Both the position numbers and the translations under genes were made by a program. Under the pieces are notes generated by a model. It had not been told where the DNA came from, ran no database searches, and saw nothing but the letters and a program-made list of their open reading frames with translations. From contig CAMHJX010000002.1 of the NCBI GenBank assembly GCA_946185535.1, positions 1 through 64,000 on the forward strand: 64,000 nucleotides of DNA. Reading direction: 5' to 3'. Below, in pieces: positions 28,734-50,129 of the stretch. The DNA comes from an uncultured Bacteroidales bacterium. GTDB lineage: Bacteria > Bacteroidota > Bacteroidia > Bacteroidales > F082. Every line of letters begins with the position of its first letter. Within the stretch, counting starts at the first letter, position 1.

Positions 28734-28805
28734 TTTTTTTCATCGAATTGATAGAATGCTTAAAAACGCCCATATATATCTATATACAACGTATAATTAT
28801 TGACA

Positions 28806-29315: not shown

Positions 29316-29334
29316 CCTTCATACATTACTTAAT

Positions 29335-31836: not shown

Positions 31837-31855
31837 CAAACAAAGAAAACGAAAT

Positions 31856-32986
31856 ATGAAGTTCAAAGATTTCATTCAGAACAACCCGTTTCGGGTGATG
31901 GGAGTCTTCACCAACGACTCCTCCGACATCATTTCAACCAACAACAGTCGAATGAAGGCTTTCGCAGTCATCGGCAAGGTTGTGTCCTTTTGGCAAGATA
32001 TGATAAGCGTCTTTGGTACTGAACCCAAACGGCAGGTGGAAACACTTGCTTCCAGTGTCGCTGCCTTGAGTTCGCCCGAAGGACGACTACGCAGCGGTTT
32101 ATTCTGGTTTATGAATCTTAACGCCACCGATGCCAGGGCTCTTGCAGCTTTGGCTCGGGGAGGCGATTTGTTGGAAGCAAGGAAGATTTGGGAGGATGGA
32201 GAGCAGAACACGTCCTCACTCCAAAACCAGTTGATGTGTTGTCTGCTGAAAGACCCCCGTTCCTATTCCAGAGCACTTCAGCAGGCCTTGACCCTTTATG
32301 ACAACTATGGCCATGAGTTCATTACTACAGTTAGTAACGGCTTCGAAGTCATTACTCCCGACAAACTGATGCCCACGTTTCTGTCGGAAATCATCAAAGT
32401 ATCTGATGGCGACTGTTGGTGGTGGGACAAGGCTGTCAAGCGCTTAGGGAATGAGACTGTTGACCTTCAGTGGACGGAAGCTAAAGCTACATGGCACATA
32501 GGCAAACTTCAAGATGCGCTTAATGTCGCCAAGACCACAGAGATTCACTCCACACAGGATAACTATGACATAGCTGTAGCTTTGATGAAGCAAGCAGAGC
32601 CGCACTTGAAGGCGTTGAAGGCACTTAATGACGGTTACCCTGCTCTGCTCTCCCGTTATGCGACCATTGCTGATGCCGTTTGTGAAGAAATTCTCAACCG
32701 TGAGATTGAATACTATAACCATATCGGGTGGTTCTCGGGTAAGGTTGACCGTGTGCTCGTCCTCAAGCGTTTTTGTTATCGCTATGCGGCCACAGTTCGT
32801 TTCAAGGACCGCTGTCGACTCAATATTAACATCGTTATGGGACGTTCGAGCAATGCCCCGGTCTTCCCTAATGGTATGCCCGACAAACTATTTTTTGAGA
32901 GCGACCGCAAAAAACGGAATGCGGGGATTTGTGCTATCCTTGCTGCCCTCAAAGAACGAAATACAGATAATGGTTATGTGGCCTGA
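31856..32986 (+). CDS. Protein with degenerate J-domain-like N-terminus
   Basis: 376 residues from ATG 31856; 19 bp after the Hsp70 gene. The start reads NPFRVMGVFTNDSSDIISTNNSRMKAFAVIGK, close to the opening of J-domains (xYxVLGVxxxASxxEIxxxxRKL) but with no HPD tripeptide. The rest is helical (TPR-like character in places: LLEARKIWEDGEQNTSSLQNQL, WHIGKLQDALNVAK). By position it would be the co-chaperone that brings clients to the divergent Hsp70. The J-domain link is an inference from pattern and context; a HHpred-type search would settle it. Confidence 0.55.
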   Translation: MKFKDFIQNNPFRVMGVFTNDSSDIISTNNSRMKAFAVIGKVVSFWQDMISVFGTEPKRQVETLASSVAALSSPEGRLRSGLFWFMNLNATDARALAALARGGDLLEARKIWEDGEQNTSSLQNQLMCCLLKDPRSYSRALQQALTLYDNYGHEFITTVSNGFEVITPDKLMPTFLSEIIKVSDGDCWWWDKAVKRLGNETVDLQWTEAKATWHIGKLQDALNVAKTTEIHSTQDNYDIAVALMKQAEPHLKALKALNDGYPALLSRYATIADAVCEEILNREIEYYNHIGWFSGKVDRVLVLKRFCYRYAATVRFKDRCRLNINIVMGRSSNAPVFPNGMPDKLFFESDRKKRNAGICAILAALKERNTDNGYVA

Positions 32987-33238: not shown

Positions 33239-33246
33239 TAAATTTG
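33239..33246 (+). promoter_or_regulatory. -7 element of the GTPase/Hsp70 operon
   Basis: TAAATTTG, exact TAnnTTTG match, 40 bp before ATG 33287. No good -33 TTG at normal spacing, which would fit control by an activator or by the operon's own sigma factor. Confidence 0.45.
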
Positions 33247-33286
33247 CCACATTGTCATCGACCCGTTTTGCAAGGAAGACTATGTA

Positions 33287-33931
33287 ATGAGAAAACAATC
33301 TAGACTCATGCCTAAAGACATACGCATCTTTACCGAGGACTTAGAAGTAGCCCAGGCGATACTACATAGGGATGAAGCCGTAACGAAACGATACCTGTAT
33401 CAGCAGTGCTATCCGCTTTTCAAGCGATATTTTGACGGCTATTATACCGATTGCGAGAATTGCATTGAGTTTATCAACGAGATATATGTACTCATTATGA
33501 CACCAAGCCGAAAAACGGGGCGGTGCCGCCTGATGAGTTATCGAGGTGAAAGCACCTTGACAAAATGGTTGAAATCAGTTTGTACTTTCTATTGTTACAG
33601 CCAGTTTGAATTGAAAAACAGACAGCCTGAAACTGAAACGATTTCACCTCCAAATCCAGAAAAAAGCAAGTCAGGTGATAGAAAACAGCCAAAAGAACCG
33701 TCTATAGATGAAGACCTCAGTATGTTCCAACGTGAGGATGTGGAGGTGATTCTTGGTTTGATGAAGAATAAACGTTATAGCCAACTCATCCGTCTGCGCC
33801 ATGTTGAACTGAAGACTGACAAAGAAACGGCTGAAGCACTTGGCATGAGCATGGACAATTATTATAACAAGCACAAACGAGCAAAAGAGATGTTTGCTGA
33901 AACGCTCAGAAAGGAGGAATGCGATGGTTAA
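33287..33931 (+). CDS. ECF-type sigma factor
   Basis: 214 residues. Region-2-like part at ~35-115 (RYLYQQCYPLFKRYFDGYY, ENCIEFINEIYVLIM, YRGESTLTKWLKSVCTFYCY) and region-4-like HTH at ~165-208 (MKNKRYSQLIRLRHVELKTDKETAEALGMSMDNYYNKHKRAKEMF). Between them is a Lys/Pro/Glu linker. First gene of a ten-gene operon; it overlaps the next gene, whose N-terminus looks like an anti-sigma domain, the usual sigma/anti-sigma order in Bacteroidota. Probably autoregulates the operon. Confidence 0.75.
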   Translation: MRKQSRLMPKDIRIFTEDLEVAQAILHRDEAVTKRYLYQQCYPLFKRYFDGYYTDCENCIEFINEIYVLIMTPSRKTGRCRLMSYRGESTLTKWLKSVCTFYCYSQFELKNRQPETETISPPNPEKSKSGDRKQPKEPSIDEDLSMFQREDVEVILGLMKNKRYSQLIRLRHVELKTDKETAEALGMSMDNYYNKHKRAKEMFAETLRKEECDG

Positions 33932-35345
33932 GCATTTGCCACATATCAGCATAGAGAAATATGCCGCTTATCTTGACGGCAATTTGCCAGATGAGGAAAT
34001 GAAGCAGATGGAGGCCTTCATTGACACCGATGCTGACATGCAAGCGGTTTTGGAAGCTGATAGCAATATTGGGGCTGATTTAGATTTGGATTTGCTTGAA
34101 AACGAGCCTATTCCCTTCGATTTTGAATTAGCTTCCATTAAGCTCCCAACACTGAATACAGGATTGGCATTGGAGCAGAATGTATTTTTTGATGAACTTT
34201 TTTCTTCCGATAGTGATAGGTATGGGGAAGAAATGGTGTCTATAATAAATGAAACCGATCAAGACAATAATTCACAAAACAACATTATCATGGCAAAAAA
34301 CACAGAATACAAAACCTATGGAGAACAGGGGGAGAACATCAAGGATTTGAATATACTACAACCAGACGACCATTCCTGTGCTTTGCGAGCACAACAAATT
34401 ATTCTGCGAGATTATGGTATAGACATTCCTTTTGAGGATTTGGAACAAATAGCTAAAAACGCAGGATACTATTCGGATAGCGGCACTTACCAGCATGATA
34501 TGGGTAAAGTACTAGAAATGGCAGGAGTGGGTGTGCATCAGATTGAAGGAGGGACTGTTTACGACCTTACCAATGAATTGGCACAAGGGCACCGCATTAT
34601 CGTTAGCGTTGATGCTGATGAGCTATGGTATAATGATAAGTTCAAAGATAAAATCAGCAATTGGATAAGTGATAGATTCGGCACACAAGCTGGCAACCAT
34701 GCTCTTATCGTGGCTGGTGTTAAGGTAAATCCAGACAATCCAAATGATGTAAAAGTTGTATTGACGGATTCGGGGGCTGGAGATTTGCGTGTTGAATACC
34801 CATTAGACCAGTTTATGGATGCATGGCAAGACTCGAACTATTTCATGGTTGCCACCGATGTTCCTGCACCATACCAATATGATGCCAGTACGCGCATGGA
34901 AGTTCCTTCTAATTTCGCTTCGCAAGTATATTTCAATCAATTTGTTGAAGAACACAGTTATCAGTTGAATGATGATTGTATTATCAGTCCGCAAGGTTAT
35001 CAGCCAGCCTTTAAAGGTCATCTTGATACGATAAGCGATGTGAAATATGAAGATTTCAGAAGCAAATACGATTTGTTGCAGGGAGCTAAATCAAATGCCG
35101 TAATACAAAGTAAAAACATTCCTGGAATGATTACAGCATTGGTGAATGACATAAAAACATTATTTGGCCATCATACCGAGCCTATGCCCGAAGAACATCA
35201 TACGGGCACTCATCCTCATGATGAGGAACCATATCCAGACGACGATTTGCCTAACGATGGCATTCATCCTTTTGAAAATCATTTTGACCATCCAGATCAT
35301 ACAGGTCCCTACACCGATGGATTTGATGGCATTGACCTTTATTAA
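33924..35345 (+). CDS. Anti-sigma-like domain fused to C39-like cysteine peptidase
   Basis: 473 residues from ATG 33924, chosen because a strong AGGAGG stands 6 bp upstream and it overlaps the sigma gene by 8 bp. N-terminus HISIEKYAAYLDGNLPDEEM matches the opening of anti-sigma/zf-HC2-like domains in Bacteroidota, without the zinc His/Cys set. Residues ~145-310 are a papain-fold, C39-like peptidase: Cys152 in DHSCALRAQQIIL, His in GNHALIVAGV (~258), Asp in LTDSGAG (~281). The C-terminus is rich in His, Asp and Pro (HHTEPMPEEHHTGTHPHDEE), perhaps metal-binding. No signal peptide, so it should act in the cytoplasm. The fusion suggests that proteolysis could release the sigma factor or activate the operon's proteins. 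Confidence 0.75.
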   Translation: MVKHLPHISIEKYAAYLDGNLPDEEMKQMEAFIDTDADMQAVLEADSNIGADLDLDLLENEPIPFDFELASIKLPTLNTGLALEQNVFFDELFSSDSDRYGEEMVSIINETDQDNNSQNNIIMAKNTEYKTYGEQGENIKDLNILQPDDHSCALRAQQIILRDYGIDIPFEDLEQIAKNAGYYSDSGTYQHDMGKVLEMAGVGVHQIEGGTVYDLTNELAQGHRIIVSVDADELWYNDKFKDKISNWISDRFGTQAGNHALIVAGVKVNPDNPNDVKVVLTDSGAGDLRVEYPLDQFMDAWQDSNYFMVATDVPAPYQYDASTRMEVPSNFASQVYFNQFVEEHSYQLNDDCIISPQGYQPAFKGHLDTISDVKYEDFRSKYDLLQGAKSNAVIQSKNIPGMITALVNDIKTLFGHHTEPMPEEHHTGTHPHDEEPYPDDDLPNDGIHPFENHFDHPDHTGPYTDGFDGIDLY

Positions 35346-35365
35346 GAGCAAACACAACTAATACT

Positions 35366-37267
35366 ATGTCAGAAATATCATACGAAAAGCTAACCGTCGC
35401 CATGAGCGGGGTAATGCAGAAAATGCAATCTTATGTTGCAGTAAACGAGAAACTTTCACTGCCCAAACCTCATACGGAATTTGTCGCGGCGAAACACACT
35501 TTGGAAGAAGGGAAACTCCGTGTTGCCGTGTGCGGGAAGGTTAAAAACGGAAAGAGTTCGTTCATCAATGCCATTATAGGCCGTGAATTGCTTCCTGTTT
35601 GTTCAGATGTGGCGACCTCACAAGTTTTCGTCATCAATCACGCAGAAAAAGATAGTTTTTTTGTAGTCTATGCCAATGGAGACAGAAAACCTATTCCAAC
35701 CAAAGAAGAATTGGTTGCCTATGGTTCACAAGCAACAATTGATTCAAAGGGGGTCATGGATGCTGACAAATCCATTCTCTATATTGAAGTAAATACACCT
35801 ATAGAATTTCTTCCTAAAAGTGTGTCAATCATTGACACTCCTGGCATTGGTTCAACCTATCCTCAGCACACTGCCATTACAAAACGATATTTGAAAATGG
35901 CAGATGCCGTTTTGTTTGTCGCCAATCCTTCTCCGTTGGAGAAAATCGAAACAGACTTCCTTAAAGAAATTGTTGATGTGACACCTAACATTATGTTTGT
36001 CACAACAAAAATTGATGAAAACGGCATTGAAAGCGTCGAAAGCAACATTGCCAACAACACAAAAAAAATATCGGAAGCTATTGGCGGCAAACTGTATAGA
36101 CCTGTAAAGATGCTGAAGATGTCGAGCAAGATACTCTTGGAAGCCGCCCTTACTGACAGTGAGAAGGCTTCGGATTTCAAATTTCGGCATTCGCATTTTC
36201 AAGAGGTAAAAGAAGAATTGTTGAACACTATTTATCTTACAAGAGGTTATTATCAGGTTGGATATGCTTACAATGAAAGCCTGAAATACTATAATGCCGT
36301 CTTGCAAAGCATAGAAAAGCGATTACAAACGGCTTTGGCCGAAGGAGAGAAAGCTAATGAAATTGCCAATCAGATAGCCGAAGCAAGAGCAAGGTTGAAT
36401 AGTCTTGGTCGACAAAAACAGGCAGATATTATGGCAGAAGTTGATAATCGGCTACGAGCCTTTGACCTTTCCTTCCGTCAAAAGATGCAAATGAATGGGT
36501 CGATTGTTTCCAAATATGAGTCGAAAATCGATAATTTGAAATACGATGAAATTCAGCAATTTGCCGATGACCTGCCTGCCAAATTAACCGAAGACCTTCA
36601 AAATGAATGGGCGCATCTGCAAGAAACACTTGTTGGTGATATTACGAATTTGCTTGAAAACTATGTAGATGAAATCCAAACAGCACCAAGCGGAGGTTCC
36701 GATGTTGTGTTATTTAGCCCAAACGGGATAGGAGAAATGGAAAAAGTAGGATTTCGCAAATACGCTGTAAATGCCCGTAACGAGGCGTACATTGGTATTG
36801 GTGGTGTCGCCATACTTGATTTCATCGGAGCCACTGCTATTCCAATTATTGGGCCTTTGGTCGTGTTAGGCGGATTAGGCTATACATTATATGGATTGTT
36901 TGCTGGTAGAACAAGAGCAAAAGCCGAAGTTCTAACTCAAAACCAAAATGCATTAAAACGTTTTGTGAGAGAAACCGTTCAGGATTTCAGCAAGCAATAT
37001 ATGGAAGTGTCACTCGAAAACGGCCAATACAATTCGTTGTTAGATGGCTATAAATTGAATTTACACAACTATGCACAGCAAGTGCTGTCAAGCACTTACG
37101 ACGCCTATTTACAGGAAGTGAAGGCTTTGGAAGAAGTCAGAGACAGCAACAAGGCTGAATCGGCAACTCTGTTGAGAGGCATCATGGAAAAATGGGAACG
37201 AAACAAGCCATTGCTGGCAGATGTGCGCAAACAACTTGAAGAGATTGGACAGGGATTAAAACAATGA
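35366..37267 (+). CDS. Dynamin-like GTPase 1 (with membrane hairpin)
   Basis: 633 residues. G1 GKVKNGKSSF (~57), G2 Thr in DVATSQVFV, G3 DTPGIGS (~157), G4 TTKID (~213): a dynamin-family G domain. Long helical parts follow (YNAVLQSIEKRLQTALAEGEKANEIANQIAEARARL). Residues ~473-513 hold a hydrophobic hairpin (IGIGGVAILDFIGATAIPII, GPLVVLGGLGYTLYGLFAG), probably a membrane-insertion paddle. Bacterial dynamins bind, tubulate or fuse membranes. They often occur in pairs; the partner here is at 42456. Located 20 bp after the peptidase gene. Confidence 0.85.
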   Translation: MSEISYEKLTVAMSGVMQKMQSYVAVNEKLSLPKPHTEFVAAKHTLEEGKLRVAVCGKVKNGKSSFINAIIGRELLPVCSDVATSQVFVINHAEKDSFFVVYANGDRKPIPTKEELVAYGSQATIDSKGVMDADKSILYIEVNTPIEFLPKSVSIIDTPGIGSTYPQHTAITKRYLKMADAVLFVANPSPLEKIETDFLKEIVDVTPNIMFVTTKIDENGIESVESNIANNTKKISEAIGGKLYRPVKMLKMSSKILLEAALTDSEKASDFKFRHSHFQEVKEELLNTIYLTRGYYQVGYAYNESLKYYNAVLQSIEKRLQTALAEGEKANEIANQIAEARARLNSLGRQKQADIMAEVDNRLRAFDLSFRQKMQMNGSIVSKYESKIDNLKYDEIQQFADDLPAKLTEDLQNEWAHLQETLVGDITNLLENYVDEIQTAPSGGSDVVLFSPNGIGEMEKVGFRKYAVNARNEAYIGIGGVAILDFIGATAIPIIGPLVVLGGLGYTLYGLFAGRTRAKAEVLTQNQNALKRFVRETVQDFSKQYMEVSLENGQYNSLLDGYKLNLHNYAQQVLSSTYDAYLQEVKALEEVRDSNKAESATLLRGIMEKWERNKPLLADVRKQLEEIGQGLKQ

Positions 37268-37271
37268 TGAC

Positions 37272-38549
37272 ATGGCAACTTTAGGTATAGATTTCGGTTC
37301 GTCTTATAGCACCGTTTCATGGATTAATCCCAAAAGCGGCAAGCCGGAGGCTGTGGAATTTGATGGGGTTGGCAACGTAAAAATGCCTTCGGTTATGCTG
37401 GCCACTAAAGACGGCTTTATGTATGGGTTTCAAGCAAGTAGCCATTTAAAAGGACTTATTGGTGCTTATGAAGTTCCATATCAAGAGCGTATGGAGATGA
37501 TGGCAAATTTCATTCTTGATTTGAAAAGAAAAGCAAAACCAAAAGCGACAGAGTGCTTTTTTGAAAAAGATTATTCTCATTTGGAACTGCTGAAATTGTT
37601 ATTCCATCACTTAATTGAAAAATCGAAAGAACATTGTGGATCGGATTATGTGGTTGACCGCATTGTTTTTTCTCATCCAGTTGAAAACCCGTATTTTCCA
37701 CATGAAAGAGTTCTTTTGATAGAAAAGGCTTTTCGTGAAATAGGCTATTCTACTATTAGCACAATGTTGGAGCCTGTGGCCGCGGTAAAAGGCTATAATC
37801 TAGATCATCGAATCAACGAAGGAGAGGGTATTCTTGTTTTTGATTTTGGTGGCGGTACCATTGATGTCGCTTATGTCAAAAAGCATTTTGGTGAATTGAA
37901 AATTATTGTGGAACCAAAAGGAAAGGGTAACTGTGGCGGTCAGGATATTGATTCTTTGCTCTATGAAGACATAAGAAAAAAAATCCGTGAGCAATATGAC
38001 TTTGACATTTCTCAAAATGGCAAAGTGATAGACCATATTATCTTATCTAAATGTGAAGAGTTGAAAAAAGATTTTAGTGAGAAAAACGAGGCGTATGAAA
38101 CAAAGTTTTATGTAAAAGGGAATCAAGTTGTATATCGTTTAAGCCGAGATGCTTTCAATGCAATCATTTCTCCAAAAGTTCAGGAAGCAATAAATGTCGC
38201 CAAAGAAGTTGTCGAAGAAGTGAAAAACAAAAACTATCGTATTGATAAAGTCTTATTGATAGGTGGCAGCTCGAAACTAACAATGGTAAAAGAACTTTTA
38301 TCCGAACTGGTTGGTAATACTCCGATTGAAACATTTGGGAAAAAAGACATTGCTGTAGCTTTAGGCTGTTTGTCTGATTGTACGCCTGTACAACAGGATG
38401 AAATACCGACACCTGAAAAAGAGGAGGAAGATGAATCCGACTTGAACAAAAAAAGTGTAACAGAAGAAGTACGTAGTGTTGGAGTAATACATCGCGGGCT
38501 ATCTGAAATACAAGAAAAATATAAAAGATCAAAACAATTAAAAACGTAA
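37272..38549 (+). CDS. NBD-only Hsp70-like ATPase
   Basis: 425 residues, 4 bp after dynamin 1. Actin/Hsp70 ATPase: GIDFGSSYSTVSWI phosphate-1, VFDFGGGTIDVAYV phosphate-2, LLIGGSSKLTMVKELL adenosine motif, EPVAAVKGYN. It ends soon after the NBD (~385) with a charged tail; there is no substrate-binding domain. It thus resembles regulatory Hsp70-fold ATPases more than a general chaperone and may drive or gate the GTPases around it. A GrpE-like partner may be the last gene of the operon (44081). Confidence 0.85.
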   Translation: MATLGIDFGSSYSTVSWINPKSGKPEAVEFDGVGNVKMPSVMLATKDGFMYGFQASSHLKGLIGAYEVPYQERMEMMANFILDLKRKAKPKATECFFEKDYSHLELLKLLFHHLIEKSKEHCGSDYVVDRIVFSHPVENPYFPHERVLLIEKAFREIGYSTISTMLEPVAAVKGYNLDHRINEGEGILVFDFGGGTIDVAYVKKHFGELKIIVEPKGKGNCGGQDIDSLLYEDIRKKIREQYDFDISQNGKVIDHIILSKCEELKKDFSEKNEAYETKFYVKGNQVVYRLSRDAFNAIISPKVQEAINVAKEVVEEVKNKNYRIDKVLLIGGSSKLTMVKELLSELVGNTPIETFGKKDIAVALGCLSDCTPVQQDEIPTPEKEEEDESDLNKKSVTEEVRSVGVIHRGLSEIQEKYKRSKQLKT

Positions 38550-38554
38550 TAGCT

Positions 38555-39481
38555 ATGGATATTTTAATGATAGGGCACAGCCGTTCTGGTAAAACCAGTT
38601 ACATGGCAGGATTATACAAAGAATTTGGCAACAAAGAAAGAGGTATCGGCATTTGGACTTCTGACTCTTCTAAACAGAGCAAATTAAAAAGGATAGCGGA
38701 CAATATCTCTCGTGGTATATACCCGACTGGTACAGACATAGCCTCTGAATATGATTTTTGGCTGCAAATTGATAACAGATTGGTAATTCCCTTTAATTGG
38801 TATGATTATCGTGGCGGTGCATTGTCTGAAAGCTCAAGGACTTCACGGGATGCGCAAAAACTAATTGAAAAAATCGAAAATGCAGATGCACTAATAGTGT
38901 TCCTTGATGGTGAAAAAATTGTCGAAGACACTGATGAAGATGCAGAAGATGATTATGAGATTCTTTTGTGGGCAATTCAAAAGGCAGTTTCTCGGAAGCA
39001 TTTGGGCTCTGGCAATTATTTCCCCATTTCATTTGTCATTACAAAAGGAGATTTGTATTCGGACTATTCGCCACTATATGATTCAGATGGCTTAGAGTAT
39101 TTTACTCCATTCTTTAAGACTATTAGAGATGGTAATACGGTTGCCGGAATGATTTCAATATGTGAAGTGGCTAAGACAGGCGTATATAATGTATTTGCTC
39201 CGTTGCTTTTTTCACTATACTATGGAATGCCTGAATACATAGGCAAACGTATGGATGCTATTAACAAAGAAATTGATTATTATAATACACTTTACCCCAA
39301 TATTCTTGACGATATTTGGACAACTATTTTTGGAGGAACTTCAGATAGAGAATTGGCTAGAAAGAGTTTACAAAAAATTGAAGAAGAAAAACAGAACCTT
39401 GAGTATTTAGAATCCATGAGCAAAGACATGTGGGATGCACTGAATTCTTTGGCAGATAATAATCATATTATTAAATTCTAA
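38555..39481 (+). CDS. Small TRAFAC-type GTPase A
   Basis: 308 residues. G1 IGHSRSGKTSYMAGLY at the very start, G3 replaced by WYDYRGG (DxxG kept as DYRG), G4 ITKGD. A helical C-terminal region (INKEIDYYNTLYPNILDDIW, KSLQKIEEEKQNLEYLESM) follows. First of three adjacent GTPases. The G1 plus YRGG pattern recalls the DO-GTPase (double-GTPase) families described in bacterial conflict systems, but I cannot confirm that without a profile search. Soluble. Confidence 0.7.
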   Translation: MDILMIGHSRSGKTSYMAGLYKEFGNKERGIGIWTSDSSKQSKLKRIADNISRGIYPTGTDIASEYDFWLQIDNRLVIPFNWYDYRGGALSESSRTSRDAQKLIEKIENADALIVFLDGEKIVEDTDEDAEDDYEILLWAIQKAVSRKHLGSGNYFPISFVITKGDLYSDYSPLYDSDGLEYFTPFFKTIRDGNTVAGMISICEVAKTGVYNVFAPLLFSLYYGMPEYIGKRMDAINKEIDYYNTLYPNILDDIWTTIFGGTSDRELARKSLQKIEEEKQNLEYLESMSKDMWDALNSLADNNHIIKF

Positions 39482-39482
39482 A

Positions 39483-40307
39483 ATGAAACAGTTTGATATT
39501 ATCGGTCTTGATGGTTCGGGAAAAACTTGCTATTTGTATGCAATGGCAGAAACAATGAGGCAAGGCCTTTATGGGCTGTCTTTTCATAGCAATTGTGACG
39601 GGTGGCAAAAGATAATAGCGGAATTACAGTGGCCTTCTGGGACTTGTAAAACTTCGTTTTTTGATTTTCAGTGTTTTTATAACTCTAAACATATAGATTG
39701 GTTGGATTTTAGCTGTATCGATTATCGAGGAGGAATAATAGTATCCTATAATGAAGTAGACAGATTGTTAAGATCCAAATTCAGGAAACGCATCATCAAC
39801 ACAGATGGTTTGATTATTCTTGTTGCAGCGGATATGTTGAAAGGTATCCTTATGGGTGACTTTGAAGCGAGAGATGATATAGATATGCTTAACTATACTA
39901 TATCGGGAGTTGGACAAAAATTGAGTCAAATACCCATTGCTATAGCGATAACAAAAAGTGATTATTTTAATAATGACGAGAACAAAGTGATGTTTCCTTT
40001 GGTTAAGCAATTGTTCCCTTTTATTTTCAATGCAGCTTTGCATTTAAATACTTTAATTGTTCCAGTCAGTTTAGGTCGAAATCTAAGCAATAACAGTTGT
40101 AGCTCGGAGAGCGTTCTTTATAATAATCCGAGTGATGGTAACATCCACATTCCCATATTATTTAACTTATATCACATTCTTGACAATCTGATTAAGACAT
40201 CCATTTCATTTAAAGACATTGCTGATCTAACTTCTATAAAGAGCACAATAAAAAAAGAACTTGTAGCATTTGCTAATAATAACATAATAGAAATAAATAC
40301 AATATGA
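39483..40307 (+). CDS. Small TRAFAC-type GTPase B
   Basis: 274 residues, 1 bp after GTPase A and overlapping GTPase C by ATGA. G1 IGLDGSGKTCYLYAMA, G3-like CIDYRGG, G4 ITKSD. Close homologue of GTPase C (FDIIGLDGSGKTCYLYAM vs ISIIGLSRAGKTCYMYAM; LIVPVSLG and HIPILFNLYH shared), so this pair arose by duplication. The most AT-rich gene of the operon by eye. It has the shortest C-terminal tail of the three. Confidence 0.7.
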   Translation: MKQFDIIGLDGSGKTCYLYAMAETMRQGLYGLSFHSNCDGWQKIIAELQWPSGTCKTSFFDFQCFYNSKHIDWLDFSCIDYRGGIIVSYNEVDRLLRSKFRKRIINTDGLIILVAADMLKGILMGDFEARDDIDMLNYTISGVGQKLSQIPIAIAITKSDYFNNDENKVMFPLVKQLFPFIFNAALHLNTLIVPVSLGRNLSNNSCSSESVLYNNPSDGNIHIPILFNLYHILDNLIKTSISFKDIADLTSIKSTIKKELVAFANNNIIEINTI

Positions 40308-41320
40308 AACAGATTAGTATTATCGGCCTTTCTCGCGCTGGCAAAACATGTTATATGTATGCTATGGCCAAAACAATGAAGCGCGGCATCAATGGAATCA
40401 CAATCTTTGCCCCAGACGATGATTTCAGGGATTTATTAGACATGGGGTGGCGATCCATCAGAAGAGAGCATAAATGGCCTCCTGGGACAGATTTGACCAA
40501 AGTTCATTGCAAATTCAATTGTTTGTTGAATTTAAGGAATGTTTTTGATTTCTGTTGGGATGATTTTAAGGGTGGTACATTGAGTAGTTTTGACGAAATA
40601 TCTAAAAAACATAGAAGTGAGTTTTATAGGTATTTACAAAATTCAGATGGCATGATTTTTTTCATCGCTGCAGATATGGTAGAGAGAATTTTGATGGATG
40701 ATCCAGATGCAGAGGATGATTTGGATGATTTAGATATGTTAAACGCAATAATAGCACAGAATGGGGATAAAATGAAACAAATTCCTATCACAATAGCTAT
40801 TACAAAAAGTGACTTGCTGGATGATGAAGCAAAGGAACTATTATTCCCTGTCATCAAACAAATCTTCCCTTCGTTATTTGTTGTCGGCAACAATGTCAAA
40901 ACCTTGATTGTTCCTGTTAGTTTAGGCCAAGATTTGGGTCATGGAGAACAAAACCAAGATATAGTGGGAGTGATTTATGCAGACCCCAAAGAGGGAAACA
41001 TACATTTACCCATAATGTTTAATTTATATCACTATCTGAAAGACTACATTAAAGAACTACGGGATGATATTTCTTCTGCAGAAAAAGAACTTCAGCGACA
41101 TGGCAAGGTTATTATCACGGCATCAAGTCATTCGGCCTTGGGTAGAGCTTTGAGAGGAGAGAGTCTTGAAGATTTAGAAATGGAAAAACAATCAATGGAG
41201 AATAATATAAAGAAATTGAAAGCAGATCTTGACCAAACCGAAAAAGACTTGAATAAGGTTCGTGAAGAGTTTACAAAGGACTGCCAATACTATGTGAACG
41301 GGAAACTTCAAACACTGTGA
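40304..41320 (+). CDS. Small TRAFAC-type GTPase C with coiled-coil tail
   Basis: 338 residues. G1 IGLSRAGKTCYMYAMA, G3-like WDDFKGG, G4 ITKSD. The core matches GTPase B; a C-terminal extension of ~85 residues forms a coiled coil (EKQSMENNIKKLKADLDQTEKDL). The switch motif has Phe-Lys in place of Tyr-Arg of its siblings, so the two may differ in GTP turnover or pair as heterodimer. 4 bp before the next gene. Confidence 0.7.
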   Translation: MKQISIIGLSRAGKTCYMYAMAKTMKRGINGITIFAPDDDFRDLLDMGWRSIRREHKWPPGTDLTKVHCKFNCLLNLRNVFDFCWDDFKGGTLSSFDEISKKHRSEFYRYLQNSDGMIFFIAADMVERILMDDPDAEDDLDDLDMLNAIIAQNGDKMKQIPITIAITKSDLLDDEAKELLFPVIKQIFPSLFVVGNNVKTLIVPVSLGQDLGHGEQNQDIVGVIYADPKEGNIHLPIMFNLYHYLKDYIKELRDDISSAEKELQRHGKVIITASSHSALGRALRGESLEDLEMEKQSMENNIKKLKADLDQTEKDLNKVREEFTKDCQYYVNGKLQTL

Positions 41321-41324
41321 TATA

Positions 41325-42431
41325 ATGGAACAGCATCTTTTTGTATATACTAGAACAAAGCATTTTGATTATCGGCTCATCTATTCACCCAATAATCAAT
41401 TTGTGCCTGACGACATAAGATGGAAATTTATAGATTTCATCAGGGAAGTTATCAACGAGGATGATCCTTTGAACGGAGAAATTGCATTGCCAAGATGGAG
41501 TTTTTATAAAATAGGCAATTATATCCTATGGGGAATTGGTTGCAGAAACTCGCTCCTTGGTTCTCAAGATTCTGATTATACAGGAACCAAAATCAGAGGG
41601 TTTTATGGACAGATAATCAAAGTGTCTGATTTTGATAAATTGTTTTTGGGTTTTACTATTGAATATTTCAAGAAATTGTATGCCGAAAAGATAGTCCCCG
41701 TATTTGAAACAAAGAGGGAAAGTGAAGTCAATAGTATTGATAGTCAGTGGCAACCAAACATTGTGTTGACACGAGTGAATAAGAGTATCCATTTGCCTCT
41801 TAATGTTAATAGTAACGTTACTAGGATTCTCCCTTCAAATAGAAATGTTCAAGAAATTGTAGAATCAGCACTGTCCTTCAACGAGATTAATATTGTTTGC
41901 TGTTTAAACAATGAGGGACATGCTCGAAAGACAGAATCATGTCGTTTTTATAATGTAACAATTATCGGACAGAACGAACAAAAAGACATTCATTTTACCC
42001 AAACCGGCGAAAGAGAGGAAGAACAACCAAAAAAAGAAAAACGAGACAGAGCATCGGTAAAGACCGCCCCAAAACATTCTGAGGCTAAAGACTCTATGTT
42101 TGACAAATGCTTCGAAAAGCTAATAGAGGGTATACTTCGTATGTCTGCCATGTTTGGATTGCCGCCAAATGAGATAATCAATCGTCTTGCCAATAAATTC
42201 CCAAACAAAACCTCTAATAATAATGTTGAAGATGGTTTTAATCAAACTGGAAAAGAAGAAAATGATGATGATTTACAGCCTTTCATTCCAATGAAATCAA
42301 ACAGAGAAGCAATTCGAGATTTAGCAGGCAAACGCGTTGAGAGAAAAAGCGAAAAAGAAGAAGTTCCAACATCCAAAGATGATTCGGATATTCGGCCTAT
42401 TTCATTTGGCAAACATGATGATGAAGGATAA
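41325..42431 (+). CDS. Hypothetical protein of the GTPase operon
   Basis: 368 residues, not recognised. N-terminal ~220 residues look like a mixed alpha/beta domain (LFVYTRTKHFDYRLIYSP, RWSFYKIGNYILWGIGCRNSL, LFLGFTIEYFKKLYAEKI). The middle and C-terminus are low-complexity, Lys/Glu/Asp-rich and likely disordered, with one helical segment (DSMFDKCFEKLIEGILRMSAMFGL). It stands directly after the three small GTPases; an effector or GTPase-activating role is possible by position only. Confidence 0.6.
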   Translation: MEQHLFVYTRTKHFDYRLIYSPNNQFVPDDIRWKFIDFIREVINEDDPLNGEIALPRWSFYKIGNYILWGIGCRNSLLGSQDSDYTGTKIRGFYGQIIKVSDFDKLFLGFTIEYFKKLYAEKIVPVFETKRESEVNSIDSQWQPNIVLTRVNKSIHLPLNVNSNVTRILPSNRNVQEIVESALSFNEINIVCCLNNEGHARKTESCRFYNVTIIGQNEQKDIHFTQTGEREEEQPKKEKRDRASVKTAPKHSEAKDSMFDKCFEKLIEGILRMSAMFGLPPNEIINRLANKFPNKTSNNNVEDGFNQTGKEENDDDLQPFIPMKSNREAIRDLAGKRVERKSEKEEVPTSKDDSDIRPISFGKHDDEG

Positions 42432-42455
42432 TTGTTTGATAAACTAAAACTAACA

Positions 42456-44084
42456 ATGACCGAAAACAACATTCTCATACAAACCCAAGCGTTGATAGAC
42501 GAAGTCTGTAGCCATTTTGAGGGGACATCTTGGGGAAAGCCTCATTGGAAAGAATTAAAAACTCTCCAAAATGAATTAACAACACCTTGCGTTTTAGCTG
42601 TAGCTGGAAAAGTAAAGGCAGGGAAAAGTTTCCTCATCAATTCATTGCTGGGGGTGGATCTGGCAATGACGGGTTGTACGGAAACAACGGCTACCATTAA
42701 TGTGTTTAAAGCGGGTAAGCCAATTTCTCCAGATACCCCTGTTTTGTGCCAATGGCTTGATGGTACAAAAGAATGGAAGCCGAAATCTTTCTTGGACTCT
42801 TTGCAGGGTACAGGTGAGACTACGCTTGAAATTGCCTCTAAAATTGACAAACTCATCTTTTATGTTGAAGGCAATCCGCTTTTGGAGGATGTGACCATTG
42901 TTGACACTCCAGGTATTGGTGCTGATGTTGGTGATGAAGGCGATGCACATCAGATTCAGACAGATGCCTATTTCAAATTAAGAAATCGGCATCAAGAAGA
43001 CACAAAAAGTCTGGCAAAATCCGATAGTGCTGACGCTGTGATTTATCTTTTCAATACAGTTCCTACAGAAACCGACAAGGATTTTATCACCTTGTTAAAT
43101 GACAATGGCAAGGGTTTGACGGCTCTTAACGGCATAGGTGTTCTATCAAAAATTGACAAAGATTTGTCGCTTTTGAAGAATGTTGACAAGTATTCGCAAT
43201 CCTTTGAAAACGAGTTGTTCACTATCATCCCTGTTTCAGCTGCGATAAAAAAATACTTACCAGAAAAAGAAAGGGCAATTGAGTTTCAGCAAGAGTTGAG
43301 AAGTGGGTTTGATTCACACGAGGGGTTTAACCTTTCAATGGATGATGAGACGTCATTTCTTGACAACGATTTGCCAGATTGTTCGCTTTCTGTTGAACGC
43401 AGAAAAGAAATGCTGAAAAGTTTTGCCAAGTCTGATTTGTCATGGAGTGCTTTCAAAATGATAGCAACTGAATTGTATTATAATGATGTGGACGAGGCAC
43501 TTCGTAAGCTATCAGAATATGCTGGCATTGAACGGTTGAGAAGACTTATTGATGAGCATTTTTTTGATAGGAGCCGTTTGTTGAGATGCAATAAAGTGTT
43601 GTCTAATTTAATGAAAGTGATTTCGCAAGTGCAGTACTCATCGTTTTTCATTGATGCTGAGTATTTTGCACGAATGAAGCAAGCTTGTCTTGAAAAGTGT
43701 ACCTCGTTGGAAGAACCTTACAGAACCATGCTGTCTCAATTGGTCGGGCAACATGTTGATGATTTGGAGGCTGTTAAAGCAGCAAAAGACAACATATTAT
43801 CCTATCGATACAGAATAGAACAATTGCAAAGCGAATTGGCGGATATTAACGACTGCTATATTGCCTATCAGAAAATGATGGCCTCAAAAGATAGTTTCAG
43901 CGATGAAGAACGTGTAGAATTAACTCCTTTGCTTACAGCAAAAGCAGTCCAAACAGACTACAGGCAACGACAAAAGTATTGGACAGCGATAGCAAACACA
44001 TCGGTTCCAAACAGTATTCGACAAATGGTGGCTATTGTTGCCAAAACTCGATACAATAATTTACTAAACGAAAAAGAACAATGA
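42456..44084 (+). CDS. Dynamin-like GTPase 2
   Basis: 542 residues from ATG 42456 (TTG 42432 in frame is a less likely start). G1 GKVKAGKSFLINSLLG (~50), G2 Thr in CTETTATINV, G3 DTPGIGADVGDEG (~149), G4 LSKIDKD (~231). Helical middle and C-terminal domains; no obvious membrane hairpin, unlike dynamin 1. The two may form a hetero-oligomer as in paired bacterial dynamins. Overlaps the next gene by ATGA. Confidence 0.82.
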   Translation: MTENNILIQTQALIDEVCSHFEGTSWGKPHWKELKTLQNELTTPCVLAVAGKVKAGKSFLINSLLGVDLAMTGCTETTATINVFKAGKPISPDTPVLCQWLDGTKEWKPKSFLDSLQGTGETTLEIASKIDKLIFYVEGNPLLEDVTIVDTPGIGADVGDEGDAHQIQTDAYFKLRNRHQEDTKSLAKSDSADAVIYLFNTVPTETDKDFITLLNDNGKGLTALNGIGVLSKIDKDLSLLKNVDKYSQSFENELFTIIPVSAAIKKYLPEKERAIEFQQELRSGFDSHEGFNLSMDDETSFLDNDLPDCSLSVERRKEMLKSFAKSDLSWSAFKMIATELYYNDVDEALRKLSEYAGIERLRRLIDEHFFDRSRLLRCNKVLSNLMKVISQVQYSSFFIDAEYFARMKQACLEKCTSLEEPYRTMLSQLVGQHVDDLEAVKAAKDNILSYRYRIEQLQSELADINDCYIAYQKMMASKDSFSDEERVELTPLLTAKAVQTDYRQRQKYWTAIANTSVPNSIRQMVAIVAKTRYNNLLNEKEQ

Positions 44085-44698
44085 GCAGCTTTATTGATGA
44101 TTTAGCAGGTGCTATTAAGGGTGTCTTTTCTCACGAAAAAAAGGGGAAAGATTATGAAGTCTTAAATCAATATGAAGACGATCCCGTTTCTCAATATGTA
44201 CCTCCCGTTGAGAAAAATAACGTTTGTGAAACTCCACTCGAAACATACGCATTGCATGAAAATGAAAATATTGACAATGTGGCTTCAAAAACAATTCAAC
44301 CTGAAGAGCCAATGAATGAAACTGAAATTGATATTCCTATAGAATCAGTGTTGAAAGATGAAGAGGTGATTGAAATGGATTTAGTGCAAGAAGACATCGA
44401 TAGAATACTGAAACTATTCATTTCTTTTTCGGAAATCATCAATGAGTTCGATACTTACATTCTGCAAACGGAAAACGAGGAAACGAAACAGATTATTGGA
44501 TTATGCCAGTACCGTTTGATAGAAGCTATGGTGTCAAACGGAGCAACTCCTATTGATAAGGATGTTGAATTTGACTGTTTAAGACATGTACCTGTACCGT
44601 TTTCAATTGTGCAAGATGGAATGCCAATCAAAGAGATACTAAGGATAGGTTTGGAGTATAACGGTAGTGTCGTTTTGAAAGCCAAGGTCGGTTTATAA
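44081..44698 (+). CDS. GrpE-like C-terminal domain protein
   Basis: 205 residues, last gene of the operon, ATGA overlap with dynamin 2. The N-terminal ~100 residues are acidic and probably disordered. Then a helix pair (EDIDRILKLFISFSEIINEFDTYIL, ETKQIIGLCQYRLIEAMV) and a terminal beta segment: NGATPIDKDVEFDCLRHVPVPF, GMPIKEILRIGLEYNGSVVLKAKV. This follows the GrpE head (GxxPIxxxxxxFDxxxHxxV, GxIxEVLRxGYxxNGxVLRPAxV). With an NBD-only Hsp70 in the same operon, an exchange-factor role is plausible. The similarity is remote and read by eye. Confidence 0.55.
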   Translation: MSSFIDDLAGAIKGVFSHEKKGKDYEVLNQYEDDPVSQYVPPVEKNNVCETPLETYALHENENIDNVASKTIQPEEPMNETEIDIPIESVLKDEEVIEMDLVQEDIDRILKLFISFSEIINEFDTYILQTENEETKQIIGLCQYRLIEAMVSNGATPIDKDVEFDCLRHVPVPFSIVQDGMPIKEILRIGLEYNGSVVLKAKVGL

Positions 44699-44724
44699 TT
44701 CTGATGTTTTTTTGTTACAGGTTT

Positions 44725-44758
44725 GGGCTGTGCTTGAAAAACACGGCTCTTTTTTTTC
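44725..44758 (+). terminator. Intrinsic terminator closing the GTPase/Hsp70 operon
   Basis: GGGCTGTG (44725-44732) pairs with CACGGCTC (44742-44749), eight pairs with two wobbles, followed by a run of about nine T. It marks the end of the ten-gene unit. Confidence 0.8.
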
Positions 44759-44923
44759 TAAAATTTGATGTAAGGTGATAGGTTTTGCCCATCGTTTCTG
44801 TCTATATTGTCAGAAAACTACAATAAAGCAAATCTGAATCAATTTTGCACTTTCCCCTATTACGAGGGGAAGGCTGCACAGGAATAATACACTCAAAACT
44901 AATCAATTAAAACTGTAAAGATT

Positions 44924-46096
44924 ATGAACAACAAACAAAAATCAGAGATGGGTAATCCTAAAAAAGATGGTGTCCTTAAGCAAGCCGCCCGCTGGGCAGC
45001 ACGCATGTTCGGCTACAAAGCCGAGAACAAGTACGCAAGGGGCGTGTGGTATGTGTTTGCCACAAGTGCTGCCGCGTTGACACTGTATTTGGCAGTGGCC
45101 CTCACTATCGTAATCGTTGATGGGGTTTGCGATATCATTAGTGACTACAAGTACCACCGCAAAGACCAAGACCCCACCTATCTGCATGACTTCGGCAACC
45201 AGTATGTCAGCCCTTACGTCATCTATCACGATTGGTATCCCAGCTATCTCTACAACATGAAGACGGGACGCCGCACCTTGACGGATGTCCATTGGATCTG
45301 CAAGTCGTCGGACGGCGACAGCATCGCCTGCTATTCTACCCTTGAGGAGCACAAACGCGGGTATTTCAATCGCTTCACGGGTGAGGTGGTGGTTCCGGCA
45401 CAATTCGACAAGGCCTGGATCTTCTCCGATGGCTTGGCTTGCGTCTATGAGAAGGGGACGCTCCACTTCATCGACCATGATGGGAAAAAAGTGATGGACA
45501 AGGAGTTCCCTTATGGCATCCGCAACGACGACTATTGCTTCCACAACGGGCTTTGCATCATGTATGACGAAAACGGACGCTTTGGCCTCATCGACAAGCA
45601 GGGCGAATGGGTGGTGGAGCCACAATACTACGAGATTGAGTATGACACAAAAGGCTTCTGGCTGGTGCAGGACTGCGATTGGAATTATGGACTGCTCGAT
45701 GCAAAGGGGCAGATGTTGCTGCCTGTCGAGTATGGCAACATCACCGTCCACCATGACGACAGCTGCATTTTTACGCGCCATCTGAACCATGTCAATCAGG
45801 TGCTCGACTTCGAATGCAATGTGCTGAACAGCTGCAATTACATGAGTGTCGAAATGCTGGAATACAACAATGGCGAATACGATGAGAATGGGGATCTGAA
45901 AACCTATCCGGCGAACTGCATGGAATACTTCACCACCGAATGGTATTGTGGCCTGATGGACAAACAAGGCAACATCATTACGCCACCTATCTATTCCAGA
46001 ATCGAGGCCATATCAGCCAACCGCTACCATTGCGACTGGGCTTATGGCTCGGTGATTTTGGACGACAAAGGACAGGAAGTAGGGGAGAAACTGTAA
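44924..46096 (+). CDS. WG-repeat membrane protein, copy 1
   Basis: 390 residues. Cytoplasmic N-terminus (LKQAARWAARMFGYKAENKYARG), one membrane helix (~45-70, VFATSAAALTLYLAVALTIVIV), then a WG-type beta-repeat region facing out of the cytoplasm (for example RFGLIDKQGEWVVEPQYYEI, NYGLLDAKGQMLLPVEYG, YCGLMDKQGNIITPPIYSRI). WG repeats are thought to bind ligands or proteins. About 75 percent identical by eye to the protein at 50130. The two copies also share the sequence around start and stop codons, so the duplication covered the whole gene. Confidence 0.85.
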   Translation: MNNKQKSEMGNPKKDGVLKQAARWAARMFGYKAENKYARGVWYVFATSAAALTLYLAVALTIVIVDGVCDIISDYKYHRKDQDPTYLHDFGNQYVSPYVIYHDWYPSYLYNMKTGRRTLTDVHWICKSSDGDSIACYSTLEEHKRGYFNRFTGEVVVPAQFDKAWIFSDGLACVYEKGTLHFIDHDGKKVMDKEFPYGIRNDDYCFHNGLCIMYDENGRFGLIDKQGEWVVEPQYYEIEYDTKGFWLVQDCDWNYGLLDAKGQMLLPVEYGNITVHHDDSCIFTRHLNHVNQVLDFECNVLNSCNYMSVEMLEYNNGEYDENGDLKTYPANCMEYFTTEWYCGLMDKQGNIITPPIYSRIEAISANRYHCDWAYGSVILDDKGQEVGEKL

Positions 46097-46114
46097 AGAT
46101 TATGAAAGTTTTAA

Positions 46115-46155
46115 GGGCTGCAAGGTCGTGGTGACGGCTTTGCAGCCCAGTTTTA
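46115..46155 (+). terminator. Hairpin after WG-repeat gene 1
   Basis: GGGCTGCAA (46115-46123) and TTGCAGCCC (46140-46148) are perfect 9-bp inverted repeats followed by AGTTTTAAG. The T-run is weak, so it may be only a partial terminator. Confidence 0.6.
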
Positions 46156-46183
46156 AGAAGAATTGAATTAAAAACAGAATCAT

Positions 46184-46588
46184 ATGAAAACAACATTAGT
46201 AACAGTTATGCTGATGCTGGCATTTGCCGCCTCAGCCCAATCTATTGACACCACCACTGTACAACTTTCACCCGATTATTTAGACTTTGACGAGGTGAAG
46301 CTTCAAATTGCGGCGCAACAATACGACAGCATCATGTACGGCGACCTCAAGGAATATCCCTTTGGCATCGTGTTCCAAAATGGCAAGGGGGGCGTTTATG
46401 ATTTCCGAAATGCTGGATTGGTGACGGAAATCATCTATGAGAACCTGACCTACGCAGGCAAAAAGGATGATGATGACGATGTCTATCATTTCTTCCGTTG
46501 GGAAGATGAGGAAACGATCGGAAAGATGTGCGTCTCGGAATCGGATGCTGGGGTTGTATCCATTGGATATAAAAAGGAAAAAGAATGA
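46184..46588 (+). CDS. Small exported protein with WG-like segment
   Basis: 134 residues, signal peptide 1-19 (MLMLAFAASAQS). The mature domain has one segment like a WG unit (FGIVFQNGKGGVYDFRNAGLVTEIIYENL). Highly acidic loop KKDDDDDVYHFF. Unknown function; it lies between WG-repeat and DUF1232 genes. Confidence 0.65.
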   Translation: MKTTLVTVMLMLAFAASAQSIDTTTVQLSPDYLDFDEVKLQIAAQQYDSIMYGDLKEYPFGIVFQNGKGGVYDFRNAGLVTEIIYENLTYAGKKDDDDDVYHFFRWEDEETIGKMCVSESDAGVVSIGYKKEKE

Positions 46589-46608
46589 GAATGACAGATT
46601 AAACTTAT

Positions 46609-46989
46609 ATGACTATGACACAATCGAATAATGACAGCTCAAATGGATGGAATCTCTCCAGCCTTTGGGAGAAAATCAAAAGCAACGCAATACGTTTTGG
46701 TCGTGGCACAACACGCCAGGTGCTGCTGATGTATTACGTTTTGAAAAGCGAGGAAACGCCACGGGGTGACAAGCTGATAGTTTACTCGGCTTTGGCCTAT
46801 CTCATTCTGCCCATCAACCTGATTTCGATGAGACGGCATCCTATTATTGGGTGGTTTGACGAGGCAGCTTCCATCGCCGTGGCTTTTCAGAAAATCCGTC
46901 AGAACATCACGCCCGAAATGGAAGAACAGGTAGATCAAACTTTGGATAGGTGGTTTGCGCAATATACGGCATACGAAGTCGTTGAATAA
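46609..46989 (+). CDS. DUF1232 (YkvA-like) protein
   Basis: 126 residues. Conserved DUF1232 core: LLMYYVLKSEETPRGDKLIVYSALAYLILPINLI, then WFDEAASIAVAF in the place of the usual DD motif. Likely membrane-associated through a short hydrophobic stretch. Function of the family unknown. Confidence 0.8.
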   Translation: MTMTQSNNDSSNGWNLSSLWEKIKSNAIRFGRGTTRQVLLMYYVLKSEETPRGDKLIVYSALAYLILPINLISMRRHPIIGWFDEAASIAVAFQKIRQNITPEMEEQVDQTLDRWFAQYTAYEVVE

Positions 46990-47002
46990 TAAAACATAAA
47001 TA

Positions 47003-50064: not shown

Positions 50065-50129
50065 TACCACAATGAAACAAATTGAAATCAAAAAGTAATA
50101 TTTCACTAACCATCTAAATGTTTAAAATT

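Follow-up and report, generated by a model that had tools for sequence, protein, structure and literature searches.

Closest described systems

Several bacterial systems contain parts that recur in the locus described here, a ten-gene operon (g01 to g10, positions 33287-44698) in a stretch of 64,000 nucleotides, hereafter the window, from an uncultured Bacteroidales bacterium of lineage F082 (assembly GCA_946185535.1, contig CAMHJX010000002.1, positions 1 to 64,000 of the forward strand). The first are the paired dynamins, i.e. Cj-DLP1/2, BDLP1 and its neighbour, IniA and LeoABC, in which two different dynamins share an operon and only one of them has a paddle-like segment. A DnaJ-like domain is reported on the dynamin adjoining BDLP1 and membrane repair is speculated on for the Cj-DLP pair (PMC6104087); work on B. 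subtilis DynA and phages provides a precedent for a dynamin in a phage context (PMC8844932).

The second are the GAP1-N2 DO-GTPase systems, which bring together pairs of small DO-GTPase-group proteins, GrpE and an Hsp70 that lacks its substrate-binding domain, in mobile neighbourhoods and a conflict context (PMC7159879). HSP70 and GrpE occur there in ~14 % of the GAP1-N2 neighbourhoods, and a second HSP70 consisting of the nucleotide-binding domain (NBD) only occurs in a subset; a conserved Walker B glutamate is the mark of the DO-GTPase family, and the systems are nearly absent from cyanobacteria (section 27 of the same paper). The available text mentions neither dynamin nor sigma nor C39, and dynamin goes unmentioned in the accessible part of PMC11237479, which does mention the DO-GTPase. 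A peptidase together with an extracytoplasmic function (ECF) sigma forms the transcriptional arm of conflict loci in the EACC2/caspase systems, described in a text whose available part contains no mention of dynamin or C39 (PMC8195603). Finally, in the DnaK-DnaJ-GrpE machine an Hsp70 whose NBD has intact ATPase motifs is joined by a GrpE partner.

The operon resembles each of these systems and departs from each. Its dynamins match IniA, BDLP, Cj-DLP and LeoA by profile, but Hsp70 and GTPase genes split the pair, and a sigma/C39 head and a GrpE-like protein are present. Compared with the DO-GTPase systems, no GAP1, FNIII or GASH protein was recognised, the GTPases carry D[YF][RK]GG (once DYRGR) and not D..GE, so that the glutamate is gone, and a dynamin pair, a sigma and a C39 peptidase are added; in contrast to the near absence of those systems from cyanobacteria, relatives of the D[YF][RK]GG kind are found on three cyanobacterial plasmids. 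The peptidase is of the C39 type and not a caspase, and unlike in the DnaK machine the substrate-binding domain is absent and no J protein was recognised in the operon. A bacterial dynamin-Hsp70-C39 or dynamin-GTPase-Hsp70 operon was not described among the literature matches listed, outside of which lie most subscription journals and bioRxiv, nor in the available parts of PMC11090510, PMC4159319 and PMC6104087. The parts are of known kinds and their combination is not found in the literature searched; the original prediction that no described system has this set holds within these searches, although each part has a described relative.

Taken as a whole, the cassette would represent a horizontally moving, inducible, protease-gated conflict system of the immune type, acting against invaders or membrane damage, a reading to which we assign a probability of about 0.58. 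The evidence consists of the conservation and exchange of the cassette, the cargo carried by sister regulators and the association of dynamin pairs with Hsp70 in other phyla.

Organization of the operon

The run of same-strand genes was correctly predicted: ten head-to-tail open reading frames (ORFs) of 205-633 amino acids (aa) each are separated, from g01 to g10, by -8, 20, 4, 5, 1, -4, 4, 0 and -4 bp. The tight spacing stands, with its upper value corrected from +24 to +20 bp. The features are as follows.

33239-33246, +: TAAATTTG, -7-like element before the operon, a near-chance motif
33287-33931, +: g01, ECF-like sigma factor (TIGR02937, below cut-off)
33924-35345, +: g02, anti-sigma-like N-terminus (~residues 1-110) and C39-type cysteine peptidase domain (weak matches to C39_2 and zf-HC2)
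35366-37267, +: g03, dynamin 1, BDLP/IniA-like over its full length, with a paddle-like segment near residue 483 (Dynamin_N, profile matches)
37272-38549, +: g04, Hsp70 reduced to its NBD, with the ATPase motifs intact and the substrate-binding domain missing (Pfam HSP70)
38555-39481, +: g05, type-A DO-GTPase relative with a DYRGG motif (Pfam, tree)
39483-40307, +: g06, type-B DO-GTPase relative, broken in the related locus L009 (Pfam, tree)
40304-41320, +: g07, type-B DO-GTPase relative with a coiled-coil-like tail (Pfam, tree)
41325-42431, +: g08, partner protein of the A/B GTPases, no Pfam family (conservation)
42432-44084, +: g09, dynamin 2, short, without hydrophobic paddle segment, with a C-terminal helical extension (Cj-DLP2-like by sequence profile)
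44081-44698, +: g10, N-terminal part predicted to be of low order and GrpE-like C-terminal half (profile comparison)
44722-44757, +: terminator-like hairpin and T-run after g10, weak (folding against shuffles)

As had been noticed, the operon is more AT-rich than its flanks. The GC content of its genes is 33.5-42 %, and their third-position GC is 0.30-0.44, whereas four genes nearby have 0.54-0.67 and two remote genes 0.65-0.68. The P-loop is kept, by eye, in all five G-domain proteins. The two signals thought to bound the operon are present but inconspicuous. The sequence TAAATTTG, which we take to be a Bacteroidota -7-like element, belongs to a motif (TAWWTTTG) that occurs near chance in the window (20 times against a shuffle mean of 15.4), and the hairpin after g10 folds weakly better than its shuffles (z -1.22) and is not among the predictions of the terminator scan. 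Since, in addition, the upstream DNA shows no conservation between the window and L009, no sigma-dependent promoter can be defined.

Conservation and exchange of the cassette

A search of genome contigs with g04 gave one confirmed relative, L009 from the uncultured Prevotellaceae bacterium RUG476, in which all ten genes are present in the same order. Identities amount to 77 % (g01), 72 % (g02), 94 % (g03), 67 % (g04), 98 % (g05), ~96 % (g06, in two frames), 75 % (g07), 91 % (g08), 99 % (g09) and 97 % (g10). In L010, from another family of the same taxonomic order, g01-g05, one type-B GTPase, g08 and g09 keep the gene order at 22-58 % identity, so that the co-occurrence in other genomes on which the original prediction depended is indeed found. 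Ratios of nonsynonymous to synonymous divergence (dN/dS) between the window and L009 are 0.09-0.18 in 8 of 9 gene pairs, which indicates that the proteins are kept by purifying selection; the value of 0.65 for g05 derives from very few changes, and g06, broken in L009, was excluded. The ten genes almost certainly form one functional operon, as their order, spacing and selection suggest. Chance neighbours or an assembly artefact, with which the single copy in the window would agree, are refuted by a gene order conserved in independent assemblies (L009 and L010), and with the purifying selection and gaps of -8 to 20 bp this explanation retains a negligible probability.

DNA homology between the window and L009 spans 33317-44698, up to the g10 stop, and identity drops on both sides, suggesting that the operon itself is the mobile unit. 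The synonymous divergence (dS) of g01-g05 and g07-g10 is 0.77, 1.17, 0.24, 1.10, 0.011, 1.28, 0.28, 0.035 and 0.23, respectively. This hundred-fold range within one operon points to recombination or allele exchange between related operons.

An exchange of most of the cassette is seen at the locus L011 of G022, a genome of the same genus as the source genome. Two segments of the window are defined by this comparison.

33317-34254, +: left arm kept at the swapped locus, covering the sigma and, as anti-sigma part, the N-terminal ~110 residues of g02, 82.3 % DNA identity to L011
34255-44722, +: interior, replaced in G022 by a different cassette of 7.6 kb (DNA comparison)

The right flank, 44723-46990, begins 25 bp past the last base of g10 and is 79.3 % identical to G022 DNA; between the two arms there is no DNA match at E<=1e-8. 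In L011, g01 is 84 % identical and the g02 relative reaches 48.6 % over 321 columns. The interior of G022 contains the rest of this relative, two other dynamins, a GrpE (Pfam 7.4e-8, over cut-off), an Hsp70-type protein whose tail looks repeat-like by eye, a tail-collar protein and an 82-aa ORF. As the sigma and anti-sigma part stay at the chromosomal site and the peptidase is exchanged with the effectors, we infer that the peptidase part may be matched to its own cassette. To the left of the sigma in L011, and over the next 14 kb, no window gene was matched.

Presence of the cassette is also rare. At E<=1e-5, and counting the source genome itself each time, the g05 profile is found in 2/393 genomes of the order, 1/99 of the genus and 1/395 of the phylum; the C39 profile occurs in 17/99 genus and 10/295 order genomes, and g09 alone has matches in 4/60 relatives, again with the source genome included. 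Horizontal acquisition, first suspected from base composition, is thus borne out by patchiness, AT-richness, mosaic alleles and the swap at one locus.

Several observations concern the surroundings of these loci. The tail-collar protein of L011 (2711-3370, phage tail-collar domain, Pfam 2.1e-14) adjoins the Hsp70 gene within the swapped cassette. WG-repeat paralogues lie in the window at 44924-46096 and 50118-51302, and the DNA match running into the neighbouring genes concerns the first copy; a 134-aa gene beside the L011 WG gene is 91 % identical. Transposase-like remnants (by eye) are located close behind the operon in L009 (17371-17754) and L010 (16572-16928), and the L010 gene at 17423-18553 matches the PADLOC models RmrA (7.5e-14) and capP (1.5e-11). 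A 619-aa window protein (48205-50064) has a weak kinase-like N-terminus and an AAA+ part (PADLOC IetA 1.2e-25, PD-T4-6 9.8e-15); a fragment in L009 (18262-18381) is similar to it over 40 residues.

The regulator head and its cargo

g01 matches the Sigma70-ECF model TIGR02937 with 1.2e-9 and 38 bits (cut-off 42.9), g02 matches C39_2 with 0.0039 and 18.2 bits (cut-off 24), and the anti-sigma part has a weak match to zf-HC2 (0.15). Both principal scores for the original assignment, an ECF-like sigma followed by an anti-sigma-like/C39 protein, lie under their cut-offs. Cys152, His259 and Asp282, which by motif we take to be the C39 triad, are invariant across g02 and three aligned relatives. C39 relatives in L069 and L105 exceed the C39_2 cut-off; the C39 profile A3 has no match to solved structures at E<=1. 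The sigma and the anti-sigma part of g02 were kept together at the swapped G022 locus.

The head is also found with other genes. Twenty stretches around C39 profile hits were examined (seven hit places were left out: G027 twice, G481, G483, G141, G063 and G272) and, with the window, L009, L010 and L011, make up 24 loci. A sigma matching the references lies close to C39 in 20 of the 24, the exceptions being L059-L062. Dynamins are present in seven of these 20 sigma-C39 loci (window, L009, L010, L011, L050, L064 and L065), and M48 and/or TIR/STAND genes in four: L057 with M48 and three TIR proteins, L058 with M48 only, L067 with TIR, nSTAND1 and Ank/WD40, and L068 with M48, nSTAND1 and a TIR protein with a SIR2-like part (below cut-off). 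L066 carries TPRs. TIR and STAND cargo is immune-type, and it is mainly this cargo beside sister sigma-C39 regulators that favours a conflict role. A second sigma and C39 pair, with TPR and PEGA-domain neighbours, exists in the source genome itself (L049, contig 2, ~222.7-226.9 kb).

An ECF-type sigma with an anti-sigma is the usual logic of envelope stress. The operon could accordingly serve general envelope stress or membrane repair, like mycobacterial iniBAC or B. subtilis DynA: damage by antibiotics or pore formers would free the sigma, and dynamins and Hsp70 would seal the membrane. The dynamin 1 family is indeed nearest to IniA and BDLP among solved structures, and the repair speculated on for the Cj-DLP pair (PMC6104087) points the same way. 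However, conflict accounts better than housekeeping for the very patchy presence, the mosaic alleles and the cassette swap at one site, and the TIR/STAND genes next to sister regulators likewise argue against repair, which makes this explanation rather unlikely. An invader is somewhat favoured over general stress as the target of the putative conflict system.

The dynamin pair, Hsp70 and the GrpE-like protein

The presence of two dynamins in one operon is confirmed by Dynamin_N matches (Pfam 4.3e-24 for g03 and 4.6e-12 for g09) and by family profiles. Among solved structures the dynamin 1 family profile is closest to IniA (4.7e-52) and BDLP (2.3e-43), and the PADLOC LeoA model, from a library without cut-offs, gives 2.7e-27 for g03 and 2.1e-5 for g09. 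The sole strongly hydrophobic segment of the operon is in g03 (19 residues starting at 483, Kyte-Doolittle 2.13); the other nine proteins reach 1.63 at most. By analogy with the solved Cj-DLP1/2, dynamins 1 and 2 probably form a heterotypic membrane pair.

A J domain on dynamin 2, suspected by eye in relatives, is unsupported for g09. Compared with 20 J domains by hhalign, the L011 dynamin gives 1.6e-5 (by eye without the HPD motif) and L011, L069 and L070 together 7.2e-5; the five closest g09 members give 0.34 and all eight together 0.63, with reversed controls at 0.23-0.48, and there is no DnaJ match in Pfam for g09 or five relatives. We therefore propose a J-like relic in the relatives and not in g09 of the window. 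As a J-like C-terminus can be detected in the L011 dynamin but not in g09, a contact between J and Hsp70 is a lead and not a result.

The prediction of an NBD-only Hsp70 was accurate. The match of g04 (425 aa) to HSP70 (1e-33) covers only profile positions 2-370 of 599, so that g04 lacks the substrate-binding domain; in each of the three cluster Hsp70s compared with Pfam (g04, L104, L105) the match ends at 370-372. The Hsp70 ATPase residues (DnaK numbering) are kept in g04 and four relatives. In L050 (7536-8786) and L065 (3440-4684) the Hsp70s terminate, at the point where the substrate-binding domain would start, in cysteine pairs that by eye resemble a zinc ribbon.

The GrpE-likeness predicted for g10 is moderately supported by profile comparison. 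Against 19 GrpE sequences (of 21 GrpE loci, picked by position; L073 and L089 were dropped) the g10-type alignment gives E 3e-4 and a probability of 40 % in hhalign, and five unrelated profiles give 0.11 or worse. With single sequences g10 reaches 0.011 and the Pfam-confirmed GrpE from L011 alone 0.047, which means that the test is noisy. A profile including members from L011, u2 and L070 matches solved GrpE (1.1e-6), whereas the g10-type profile alone fails; g10 itself has no Pfam match at all and its AF2 model is poor. GrpE-like proteins are present in the L011, L070 and L107 cassettes, and a separate GrpE is encoded elsewhere in the source genome, on contig 1.

Just upstream of the operon lies a second, separate cluster (27744-32986), such that two Hsp70/GrpE-like clusters are side by side. 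It encodes a sigma-like protein (by eye, with no Pfam match), a protein of 171 aa that has a hydrophobic segment at its N-terminus and a weak GrpE likeness (hhalign 1.6e-3), one of 833 aa in which the only relevant Pfam domain is an Hsp70 NBD, and a 407-aa unknown.

Dynamin pairs also adjoin Hsp70 or C39 outside the phylum. A plasmid survey yielded 31 records matching g09, of which six were examined. On four actinomycete plasmids a dynamin pair adjoins one or two Hsp70s. Two of them, from Rhodococcus, have the order dyn-GrpE-like-dyn-Hsp70-Hsp70, with a GrpE-like protein of 160 aa just below the Pfam cut-off (1.2e-4 and 1.1e-4), and R. opacus pLPS8 has dyn-dyn-Hsp70-hyp-C39, the C39 being recognised with the g02 profile (1.5e-17). 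An Anabaena plasmid shows GTPase (cut at the locus edge)-B-g08-C39-188aa-dyn-dyn.

The GTPase/g08 module

The operon is composed of three separable modules: sigma and g02; the dynamin pair with the Hsp70 NBD and the GrpE-like protein; and the A/B GTPases with g08. Relatives of sigma, C39, dynamin 1, Hsp70, dynamin 2 and g10 occur in L050 (same genus) and L065 (another family, with two small ORFs between sigma and C39). Neither locus has a GTPase or g08 match, and the GTPases and g08 are hence an optional insert between Hsp70 and dynamin 2.

The three small GTPases of the original prediction are DO-GTPase relatives, g06 and g07 being paralogues of one type. With a Pfam cut-off of 27, g05 scores 36.5 bits (DO-GTPase1) and g07 28.7 (DO-GTPase2), both over, and g06 18.8 (DO-GTPase2), below. 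In a tree of 14 GTPases, clade A unites g05, the A protein of L010 and two cyanobacterial A proteins (support 85/84), and clade B g06/g07, the B protein of L010 and three cyanobacterial B proteins (95/95); four GAP1-linked GTPases (L096, L097) fall outside both on long branches, their placement being unsure. D[YF][RK]GG is present in 10/10 aligned A/B GTPases and D..GE in 4/4 of the GAP1-linked ones; two further A proteins have DYRGG and DYRGR, neither with the glutamate. On our own reading, the D..GE column would correspond to the glutamate meant in PMC7159879. The GTPase/g08 set looks like an undescribed subfamily.

The N-terminal part of g08 is conserved as far as cyanobacterial plasmids. 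With g08 as query no plasmid was found; its Anabaena relative retrieves three cyanobacterial plasmids, Anabaena itself included, and those of Geminocystis and Calothrix have the order A-g08-A-B-g08, with no dynamin, C39 or Hsp70 in those of their genes that were compared by profile or among the annotated genes of these stretches. A GAP1 identity of g08 was considered and not found: g08 and two relatives have no GAP1 match in Pfam, and hhalign of g08 against GAP1 gave nothing, a weak test with only two GAP1-N1 sequences for comparison. GAP1-N1 itself occurs in 3/247 genomes of the phylum, 2 of them over cut-off. FNIII and GASH names are absent from the Pfam matches of the ten proteins, the presence of a GASH model in Pfam being unconfirmed.

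These data bear on the explanation that the operon is a canonical DO-GTPase/GAP1 conflict system (PMC7159879), with dynamins as a variable effector and g08 as a diverged GAP1. Two GTPases over their DO-GTPase cut-offs, the HSP70 and GrpE genes of GAP1-N2 neighbourhoods noted above and the position of g08 directly 3' of the GTPases would agree with it. It is made improbable by the lack of the family glutamate in the ten aligned GTPases and the two more, by the missing GAP1 match for g08 and its relatives (the hhalign comparison being weak) and by L050 and L065, which carry the core without GTPases.

Weight of the evidence and proposed mechanism

A number of points weigh against the conflict system as we read it. 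Seven of the 20 sigma-C39 loci (L049, L051-L056, alike by gene size) are without clear immune-type cargo, the two partially scanned among them (L049 and L056) having PEGA, Sel1, TPR and FGE-sulfatase domains. No Hsp70 was matched in L064, where sigma and C39 accompany at least two dynamins; neither annotation nor matching shows one in the stretches from Anabaena, Calothrix and Geminocystis, and a Lysinibacillus plasmid has three dynamins with neither Hsp70 nor C39. No g10 match was found in L010, and a J domain is undetectable in g09 (hhalign against 20 J domains, 0.24). Scans of viral contigs with the g08, dynamin 2 and g05 profiles gave no relative, and phages a single weak dynamin 1 match in an unannotated record of 8.8 kb. 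As for the swapped locus, the WG protein of L011 is nearer to the second WG copy of the window (72 %) than to the flanking one (65 %), and G022 carries 6 % listed contamination.

At rest, the anti-sigma part of g02 would hold the g01 sigma. Invasion or membrane damage would activate the C39 peptidase, which would in turn free the sigma, causing the operon to induce itself, and/or cut a downstream component; these roles of g02, its N-terminus holding the sigma and its C39 domain releasing it, are suggested only tentatively. Dynamin 1, with its paddle-like segment, and dynamin 2, without one, would then assemble where the inner membrane has been damaged or invaded. Instead of serving as a folding chaperone, the Hsp70 ATPase could be an ATP-driven clock that times the assembly and disassembly of the dynamin coat and is reset by the GrpE-like g10; that Hsp70 with its GrpE-like protein drives one or the other process has, in our view, an even chance of being right. 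The A/B GTPases and g08 might set the threshold, again a tentative assignment. In the end the membrane would be sealed, lysis delayed or the infected cell lost.

The single ten-gene system that was originally envisaged survives as a conserved unit, with the qualification that its three modules also occur apart and that the GTPases and g08 are optional. Likewise, the control of paired dynamins by Hsp70 and GTPases is in line with the association of both with dynamin pairs, the GTPases forming only an optional layer. In its most extended form, the proposal would be that of an undescribed class of immunity common to several phyla, in which C39 protease, Hsp70 devoid of its substrate-binding domain, exchange factor and dynamin pair form one machine. 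Hsp70 would load or strip the coat at the site of invasion, the GTPase/g08 module would be a plug-in switch, the ECF sigma held by the anti-sigma domain of the protease would turn the cassette on in this order, and dynamin, TIR or STAND cassettes would all fit into the sigma-C39 head as into a common socket. This complete scheme is doubtful as a whole.

The locus joins three threads that the literature consulted treats apart, namely the purpose of bacterial dynamin pairs, the presence of Hsp70s without substrate-binding domain and GrpE-like proteins in conflict loci, and the way such loci are switched on. That dynamin pairs adjoin C39, Hsp70 or both in three phyla leads to the prediction that Hsp70-type ATPases regulate bacterial dynamins, comparable to Hsc70, which strips clathrin coats in eukaryotes (PMC4436892). 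The sigma-C39 head, for its part, may offer a handle for locating further inducible immune cassettes.

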